Shown here: positions 3,757 to 7,625 of the stretch, piece by piece
How the letters are laid out: each line of letters opens with the position of its first letter
Numbering within the stretch: the stretch's first letter is position 1
Assembly (NCBI GenBank): GCA_001873285.1
Contig: MNYV01000154.1
Location: forward strand, 1-7,625
Length of the DNA: 7,625 bases
DNA from: Nitrospirae bacterium CG2_30_53_67
Lineage (GTDB): Bacteria; CG2-30-53-67
Direction: 5' to 3'
Notes under the pieces: model-generated
Told to the model about the DNA's origin: nothing
The model's database searches: none
What the model saw: the letters and a program-made list of their open reading frames with translations, nothing else
Program-made: the position numbers and the translations under genes

Positions 3757-3879
3757 GCTTAGCGGCCCAATTTGTAAATACGGTGGCATTCGAGCCTGCC
3801 TGCCGCCTGCCTGCGCTACAGCAGTCAGACGACAGCCAGGCCTGCTGCGTCGCCATATTTACGAACAGGACCACTTAGC
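3757..3879. repeat. 123-bp element bounded by 31-bp imperfect inverted repeats
   Basis: The arm at 3757-3787 matches the reverse complement of 3849-3879 at 22 of 31 positions without gaps. The best stretch is GTAAATA (3774-3780) opposite TATTTAC (3857-3863). Between the arms lie two exact copies of GCCTGCCTGC (3794-3803 and 3805-3814), one base apart. No reading frame is apparent. The form fits a small non-autonomous repeat (MITE- or REP-like) or a structured RNA. No target-site duplication was recognised. Confidence 0.5.
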
Positions 3880-3901
3880 CTTCCTGATTTTACGGAGTCG
3901 T

Positions 3902-5717: not shown

Positions 5718-6719
5718 ATGTTTGAACACAAACATCATCCCAGGGAAAAGAAAGAGGCCCATCTCCATGAAGGAGACGGTACACATCACCACCGGCATCG
5801 GGCCACGGAGCGAAAGCTTCTGAGGGTGGTCATCGTGTTGACCTTTGTCATGATGGCGGCGGAAATCATCTGGGGCATACTTTCCAACAGCTTGGCCCTT
5901 CTTTCCGATGCCTTTCATATGCTGACCCACTTCAGCGCTCTAACCGTGAGCCTGGTCTCCATTGAGGTAGCCGTCAGGATGAACCACCGGGACAAGACCT
6001 TTGGATACTGGAGGATCGAGATTCTGTCGGCCCTGTTCAACGGCCTGACCCTCCTGCCGATCACGGGCTACATCCTCTACAAGGCCTACCAGCGGTTTGA
6101 GAACCCGGAGATGGTCGTCGTTTCACAGATGTTTGTGGTCGCTGTGATCGGACTTGCGGTCAACGTCTTATGCGCCCTGATCCTTGCAGGCGTGAGCCGT
6201 GAGGATTTCAATATCCGGGGGGCCTTCCTCCACATGATCGCGGATACGGCCTCGTCCGTGGGTGTGGTCATCGCCGCCGTCATCATCCATTTTACCAACT
6301 GGTACTTTCTGGACCCGCTGGTGAGCGTGCTCATCGCCGTGGTCATCCTGGCCTGGTCCCTGAGTCTGATCCGGGAATCGGTCAACATCCTGCTGGAATC
6401 GGTGCCCAAGGGAATCAACATTCAGGAGGTCCGGGATGCCGTACTCGGGATCCCGGAAGTCAAGGACATCCACGACCTGCATATCTGGCAGATCACATCC
6501 TCGATGTATGCCCTGACCGCTCATGTGGCCGTAGAGAACATCCCGATAGCGGAAACCCGGTCCATCATGGTGAAAATCAACAGGATTCTCGATGAACGTT
6601 TCCACATCACTCATGCCAATATTCAATTTGAACCGCATCTATCGGCGTATGACCGGCATGGAGAGGGGAGGGCAGAAGAGAGCCCAAGACATCCCGTAAG
6701 CAAGGAGGAGAGCCTGTGA
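5718..6719 (+). CDS. Cation diffusion facilitator (CDF) heavy-metal efflux transporter
   Basis: From the ATG at 5718 the product has 333 residues. A TTG at 5694 would add eight residues but has no better ribosome binding site. The N-terminus (1-30) is His-rich (HKHH, HLH, HHHRHR), probably a cytosolic metal-collecting segment. Six membrane segments follow, about 33-55, 58-86, 99-122, 135-158, 170-192 and 198-220, then a cytosolic C-terminal domain with DLHIWQITSSMYALTAHV (253-270). CDF proteins are dimeric antiporters that exchange cytosolic divalent metal for protons. The site in segment 2 is D64-AF-H67-MLT-H71 and in segment 5 H172-MIA-D176. Zinc exporters such as ZitB/CzcD normally have HxxxD in segment 2; here it is HxxxH, as I recall for the DmeF cobalt/nickel group. 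So it is a CDF exporter with Zn, Co or Ni as likely substrates. It begins 49 bp after rng and may share its transcript. Confidence 0.93.
   Translation: MFEHKHHPREKKEAHLHEGDGTHHHRHRATERKLLRVVIVLTFVMMAAEIIWGILSNSLALLSDAFHMLTHFSALTVSLVSIEVAVRMNHRDKTFGYWRIEILSALFNGLTLLPITGYILYKAYQRFENPEMVVVSQMFVVAVIGLAVNVLCALILAGVSREDFNIRGAFLHMIADTASSVGVVIAAVIIHFTNWYFLDPLVSVLIAVVILAWSLSLIRESVNILLESVPKGINIQEVRDAVLGIPEVKDIHDLHIWQITSSMYALTAHVAVENIPIAETRSIMVKINRILDERFHITHANIQFEPHLSAYDRHGEGRAEESPRHPVSKEESL
6702..6708 (+). promoter_or_regulatory. Strong ribosome binding site of the 69-residue gene
   Basis: AAGGAGG inside the transporter's last codons ends 7 nt before the GTG at 6716. This near-perfect site supports the GTG start and translation of the small frame. 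An identical copy lies in the inverted arm at 7492-7498 on the minus strand. Confidence 0.75.
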
Positions 6720-6925
6720 GACTGCACTCCATGCAGTTCCACCTTGAATCGTCCAGGAAGAGTATTGAAGCATTAATCAGAAACAGCGGCGACGAGCTGG
6801 CGCCGGGAACCTATATACAGCCTGCCCGGGACATCCTCTCGCAAGACCACCATCTGTCCGGCCTCACTTCCGTATTGAACATCCTGCTGGAGGCTATGGA
6901 AGAGGCGAGGCCAAAGAAGACGTGA
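6716..6925 (+). CDS. Small uncharacterised protein, translationally coupled to the CDF transporter
   Basis: The frame encodes 69 residues. Its GTG start overlaps the transporter stop (GTGA at 6716-6719) and follows a near-perfect AAGGAGG, so translation is very likely. I do not recognise the family. The protein is soluble, with no signal peptide or membrane segment and no cysteine. It has H4, H9, an HH pair (42-43), a likely helix at about 10-22 (SSRKSIEALI) and another at about 45-63 (GLTSVLNILLEAMEEA), ending in a basic PKKT tail. The coupling suggests a function linked to the transporter or merely co-expression. The gene lies entirely inside the left arm of the long inverted repeat and has an exact copy at 7275-7484. 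Confidence 0.7.
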   Translation: MRLHSMQFHLESSRKSIEALIRNSGDELAPGTYIQPARDILSQDHHLSGLTSVLNILLEAMEEARPKKT

Positions 6926-6986
6926 GCAGGGACCTGATCGCGTTAATATTTATGGATCATCTCCAAAAGAGTAGGTGAAAACATCA

Positions 6987-7022
6987 GGGGTCAAGGGGTC
7001 AAGGATTCCAGGGGCCAAGTGA
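6987..7022 (+). repeat. GGGGTCAA short repeats, left flank of the four-helix-bundle relic
   Basis: Two tandem GGGGTCAA units (6987-6994, 6995-7002) are followed by GGATTCCAGG and a degenerate GGCCAAGTG. They are mirrored by CTTGACCCC units at 7171-7213. Such heptad/octad repeats often border genes for four-helix-bundle (23S rRNA intervening-sequence-like) proteins. Confidence 0.7.
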
Positions 7023-7023
7023 A

Positions 7024-7185
7024 GTGCTCAAATACTACAAGGAGTTAAAGGAAAGGCCCCAGTCATATCAATTATGTTTGGAGATTTATAAAATAACAAA
7101 AAGACTTAAGAGTGATATCGAGGAGGTTGAGTGGATGCTCAAGGCACTGATCAAGTCACTGGAAAACAAACACTTGACCCCTTGA
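7024..7185 (+). pseudogene. Internally deleted four-helix-bundle protein (23S rRNA intervening-sequence protein family) remnant
   Basis: The open frame, read from a GTG at 7024, gives 53 residues. The first half (KYYKELK, then SYQLCLEIYKITKR) looks like the N-terminal helix of four-helix-bundle / 23S rRNA-intervening-sequence proteins. The second half (SDIEEVEWMLKALIKSLENKH) looks like their last helix. The two are joined directly around codon 27-28, while intact members have about 115-125 residues, so I infer an in-frame loss of about 65 residues covering the middle helices. No ribosome binding site is evident and the product would not fold as the normal bundle, so I call it a relic. The family assignment comes from recall of the family pattern, not a search. 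The frame sits at the centre of the long inverted repeat and ends inside the right-hand repeats (LTP then stop). Confidence 0.55.
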
Positions 7186-7213
7186 ACCCTGGAATCCTTG
7201 ACCCCTTGACCCC
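7171..7213 (-). repeat. GGGGTCAA short repeats, right flank of the four-helix-bundle relic
   Basis: CTTGACCCC, CTTGAACCC, CTTGACCCC and CTTGACCCC units mirror the left set. This side has one extra 8-bp unit relative to 6987-7022, which is why the perfect pairing of the long arms stops at 7013/7187. Confidence 0.7.
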
Positions 7214-7274
7214 TGATGTTTTCACCTACTCTTTTGGAGATGATCCATAAATATTAACGCGATCAGGTCCCTGC

Positions 7275-7484
7275 TCACGTCTTCTTTGGCCTCGCCTCTT
7301 CCATAGCCTCCAGCAGGATGTTCAATACGGAAGTGAGGCCGGACAGATGGTGGTCTTGCGAGAGGATGTCCCGGGCAGGCTGTATATAGGTTCCCGGCGC
7401 CAGCTCGTCGCCGCTGTTTCTGATTAATGCTTCAATACTCTTCCTGGACGATTCAAGGTGGAACTGCATGGAGTGCAGTCTCAC
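7275..7484 (-). CDS. Second, identical copy of the 69-residue small protein
   Basis: The translation is identical to that of 6716-6925, with the same GTG start, the same AAGGAGG (7492-7498) and the same overlap with a transporter 3' end. It is unrecognised for the same reasons. If the inverted repeat is an assembly artefact, this copy does not exist in the genome. Confidence 0.5.
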   Translation of the reverse strand: MRLHSMQFHLESSRKSIEALIRNSGDELAPGTYIQPARDILSQDHHLSGLTSVLNILLEAMEEARPKKT

Positions 7485-7625
7485 AGGCTCTCCTCCTTGC
7501 TTACGGGATGTCTTGGGCTCTCTTCTGCCCTCCCCTCTCCATGCCGGTCATACGCCGATAGATGCGGTTCAAATTGAATATTGGCATGAGTGATGTGGAA
7601 ACGTTCATCGAGAATCCTGTTGATT
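7481..7625 (-). CDS. Inverted copy of the CDF transporter C-terminus (partial, runs off window)
   Basis: On the minus strand this reads residues 287-333 of the transporter plus the stop codon, identical to 6578-6719. Whether an intact second transporter lies beyond the edge cannot be told. A complete copy would mean a large inverted duplication or fold-back; an abrupt end would mark the duplication border. Confidence 0.6.
   Translation of the reverse strand, partial: INRILDERFHITHANIQFEPHLSAYDRHGEGRAEESPRHPVSKEESL

Follow-up and report, generated by a model that had tools for sequence, protein, structure and literature searches.

Miniature inverted-repeat transposable elements (MITEs) of prokaryotes have been reviewed (PMC10969869), and the repeat family described below resembles them in its short copies, imperfect terminal inverted repeats, target duplications, lack of a transposase and high copy number. 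It differs from them in the presence of tandem heptads (GGGTCAA-type) and of 23S-IVP gene remnants in some copies, which would make it a modest addition to the known prokaryotic MITEs. A second related system is the Coxiella IVS, a 23S rRNA intervening-sequence element with an S23 gene (PMC4990558). The likeness lies in the small size, the terminal inverted repeats and the S23-type reading frame, whereas the frame found here is decayed and is located within a dispersed MITE outside the rRNA genes. At the level of the assembly, the closest counterparts are the repeat-induced fold-back or chimeric contig ends of draft genomes, which have in common with the present case a mirror running to the contig end, a turn inside a high-copy repeat that has inverted repeats of its own, and a true continuation on another contig, with nothing essential unlike. 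A literature search on palindromic contig-end artefacts found nothing direct.

The window, i.e., the whole stretch of DNA that was analysed (7625 bp), is the complete contig C154 of a draft genome of 2.36 Mb in 183 contigs. A preliminary description had reported a perfect inverted repeat at 6575-7625 with partly coding arms of at least 439 bp and a 173-bp centre, and this was confirmed: 6575-7013 and 7187-7625 are exact reverse complements of 439 bp around a 173-bp centre, the position sums across the arms (14200) are correct, and the arm length is far above chance. Beyond the 439-bp arms, the pairing is interrupted by two mismatches at 7014-7015 and resumes for four bases. As the window is the whole of C154, the mirror, which is exact up to 7625, reaches the contig terminus with the last base of C154, a behaviour that the preliminary description had named as a sign of a fold-back artefact; the arms are given as "at least" 439 bp because only the contig end limits their length. 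The inverted repeat is very probably a fold-back artefact at the end of C154, considering that the mirror ends at the contig end, that another contig (C66) has the matching target duplication, and that the two flanks are adjacent in a relative. The 418 bases at 7208-7625 are almost certainly false sequence, and the second gene copy that they seem to carry is almost certainly not there. The features of the region are as follows.

6575..7013, + strand: left arm of the apparent palindrome, genuine; an exact arm, in synteny with the relative up to 6789, that contains the 3′ part of a cation-efflux gene, a 69-aa open reading frame and the left MITE end
6946..6953, + strand: ATATTTAT, the 8-bp target-site duplication on the left side of the element; its right-hand counterpart is on C66
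6954..6976, + strand: left terminal inverted repeat of the MITE, GGATCATCTCCAAAAGAGTAGGT, the shared left end of the family
6954..7207, + strand: the stretch of the MITE copy that is genuine (254 of 282 bp), with C66 identity over 7009-7207
6979..7185, + strand: putative internally deleted remnant, within the MITE, of a 23S_rRNA_IVP (S23, four-helix bundle) frame, of which the longer copy on contig C94 matches PF05635
6993..7013, + strand: left copy of a 21-bp inverted repeat, AAGGGGTCAAGGATTCCAGGG, site at which the contig turns back
7187..7207, - strand: right copy of the 21-bp inverted repeat, belonging both to the true continuation on C66 and to the false mirror
7208..7625, no strand: almost certainly false sequence, mirror of 6575-6992, which in the genome would not adjoin the MITE

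The 69-aa open reading frame (6716-6925), located 3′ of the cation-efflux gene, has no Pfam match; as conservation in the same-genus genome is limited to its first 25 codons, it possibly does not function as a gene.

When the DNA of 6575-7625 was searched against the own genome, 99 matches were obtained; they are spread over dozens of contigs, and almost all fall within approximately 6940-7260. Many of the copies sit at contig ends, and the repeat therefore breaks this assembly. The preliminary description had placed the turning point in a small unit with inverted repeats of its own, which agrees with the switch at the 21-bp inverted repeat inside the MITE; it missed that the centre is one of the many copies of a transposable element. 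When the copies were read side by side, a left end GGATCATCTCCAAAAGAGTGGGTGAAAACATCAGGGGTCAAGGGGTCAAGGATTCCAGGGGTCAAGTGAAGTGCT, the same in more than 30 copies, a right end CACTTGACCCCTTGAACCCTGGAATCCTCGAACCCTTTTTACCCACTAAATGGGAGAAGAACC and a variable middle were found, and the termini form 23-bp imperfect terminal inverted repeats. The terminal pattern occurs 208 times in the genome (102 forward and 106 reverse), against a single occurrence of a reversed-pattern control, and the family comprises approximately 100 dispersed MITE-like elements in the 2.36-Mb draft. These are multi-copy elements whose complete copies span 125-409 bp, and no transposase frame was seen in them. Exactly 8 identical flanking bases were found in 10 of 41 complete copies (most from the own genome, seven from the same-genus genome), and 6, 7, 9, 10 or 11 in none. 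The summed 8-base flank match was 235, compared with 146 ± 9 (maximum 174) in 2000 shuffles of the right flanks; the family has a fixed 8-bp AT-rich target duplication. The same-genus genome contains 31 terminal matches, and the family is essentially absent from six other relatives. Judged by its sequence features, the real object at this locus is an ordinary, genus-restricted, MITE-like family.

Regarding the true right side of the copy in the window, an intact insertion requires ATATTTAT to come after the right terminus. The right junction predicted in this way, GGGAGAAGAACC followed by ATATTTAT, has one exact occurrence in the whole assembly, on C66, and the only match to GGGAGAAGAACCATATTTAT in the genome lies at C66:5486-5505, - strand. 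Over 199 bp, the C66 end agrees base for base with 7009-7207, including positions where the window copy differs from most of the family, and it diverges at 7208, from which C154 continues with GACCCCTGATG, mirroring its own left end. Past this overlap, C66 shows TTTTTACCCACTAAATGGGAGAAGAACC, a normal right terminus, followed by the target duplication. C154 lacks the right terminus; with 254 bp on C154 and the last 28 bp (TTTTTACCCACTAAATGGGAGAAGAACC) on C66 only, the complete element is therefore 282 bp long. The preliminary description had proposed to look for heptad repeats leading into a different right-hand sequence, and C66, as an assembled contig, provides such a path.

Comparison with the same-genus genome leads in the same direction. 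CAKKPE010000060.1 (Hainich-H32-bin143-1) matches C154 5707-6789 at its positions 357-1439 and, 10 bases further on, from 1449, matches C66 at 92%. The genes of C154 and C66 neighbour each other in this contig, with neither the element nor the duplication between them; the matched genes of C66 encode what we take, by reading the sequences, to be a 173-aa membrane-type protein, an FMN-binding-type protein, a porin-like protein, a Fur-type regulator and NrfD/NrfC-type proteins. Approximately 150 bp of the own genome beside the insertion site are missing in the relative, which therefore has no perfect empty site, yet its flanks are adjacent and the gene order is clear. The preliminary description had rated an artefact as no less likely than a real duplication, and the C66 continuation, the target duplication and this synteny support that assessment. 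The two convergent gene copies that it had envisaged otherwise are not supported.

Other ends of the assembly behave in the same manner. C47 (7232 bp) contains an element copy at 6533-6822 within a fold-back region at 6533-7232, and its flank is mirrored over 410 bp up to the contig end with 0 mismatches. AGAAAAGA, the duplication predicted from the left flank of C47, was found after the right terminus on both C10 and C109. C10 starts inside the element and is identical to C47 over 128 bp, including the distinctive middle of C47, before it continues into a normal right end; by this identity and the matching duplication, C10 is the true partner of C47. The first 90 bp of C109 (1-90) duplicate the flank of C10 after the MITE while the other flank of its element mismatches, and this end is thus regarded as chimeric. 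As read from these contigs, the MITE family is one that misleads this assembly repeatedly.

As for the way in which the fold-back may have arisen, C154 would enter a dispersed MITE copy, read through it as far as the subterminal heptad repeats of the opposite end, jump there onto the reverse complement of the entry heptads, and then run back along its own flank over the last 418 bases of the contig. The heptads near one element end are inverted with respect to those near the other, and the two sets share an exact 21-bp stretch (6993-7013/7187-7207), inside which the mirror starts. The jump may have occurred either in the graph of the assembler or by template switching in library molecules. A smallest k-mer of 21 is common among short-read assemblers, and the coincidence with the 21-bp shared stretch favours a graph error for C154. 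The switch in C47, in contrast, shares only 7 exact bases (17/18 with one mismatch), too few for a direct join in a k-mer graph, so that an origin in the library, by a template switch at the inverted heptads during PCR or amplification, is possible, although it is the less probable of the two: C154 shares the full 21 bp, and the end of C109, the third chimeric one at this family, points to repeat-graph confusion. The simple shared-k-mer account would suit C154 better than C47.

A real inverted duplication of the end of the CDF gene around the MITE, whether carried by the whole population or by a part of it, would explain the sequence as assembled, and inverted heptads could promote template switching in the cell as well; it is nevertheless very improbable, since an intact target duplication joins the flank and C66, the relative keeps the same gene order without a duplication, and both fold-backs, with 0 mismatches, run up to a contig end and are not followed by unique sequence. 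It was rejected on C66, the target duplication and the synteny. That template switching at the inverted heptads has given a minority of cells an inverted duplication at this MITE is similarly improbable; if true, it would make the MITE family an inversion and duplication hotspot. The amplification or inversion hotspot suggested in the preliminary description is not supported by the data, which hold no evidence for an amplification hotspot. A composite transposon, in which the element was inserted twice in opposite orientation beside a really duplicated flank, is the least credible reading, for although both orientations of the family occur in the genome, the window has one element only, with an apparent second left end that is the mirror, the right terminus is absent from C154, and C66 contradicts it. 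With the fold-back artefact as the preferred explanation, a false gene duplicate and 418 bases of false sequence would be pinpointed in a public draft genome. Target-site duplications can pair contigs broken at MITEs and expose fold-back ends, and both cases (2/2) were solved here in this way.

Regarding the cargo of the family, the frame in the window copy has no Pfam match, PF05635 included at its cut-off. The copy on C94 matches PF05635 (23S_rRNA_IVP) with an E value of 8.9e-12, and further copies match too, which points to the capture of a four-helix-bundle gene by the family and to the later loss of parts of it. The frame at C94 2-202 is the longest S23-type remnant seen inside a MITE copy.

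The enzyme that mobilised the family may be sought among ISL3-type transposases. ISL3-family insertion sequences generate 8-bp duplications, which would fit those of the MITE family. The same-genus genome contains a truncated remnant of a PF01610 transposase with GGGTCTTCTCCCAAACGAGTGGGT just upstream, which resembles the MITE terminus GGTTCTTCTCCCATTTAGTGGGT, and an ISL3-type transposase is therefore a candidate mobiliser. The parallel is incomplete in that a search of the own genome found no ISL3 transposase (PF01610), and the related insertion sequence is known from one end, the only one seen. The MITE family is possibly ISL3-related; an intact ISL3 relative, if it is the mobiliser, would carry GGTTCTTCTCC...AGTGGGT ends. 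A search of the own genome for an IS1595 transposase found none, and a literature search on ISL3-type MITEs with 8-bp duplications found nothing direct. Two pairs of distant MITE ends were considered as possible full-length insertion sequences and rejected: C108 (1389 bp) has ordinary genes, no evident transposase and mismatched flanks, and C57 (approximately 3.2 kb) has ordinary genes and no evident transposase.

The window has no Rfam match. It contains a second dispersed repeat at 3757-3880 with imperfect inverted ends (GCGGCCCAATTTGTAAATACGG... / ...CGCCATATTTACGAACAGGACCACTTAGC), for which 75 matches were found in the own genome, often as paired ends approximately 130-150 bp apart, and which is probably another MITE-like family.
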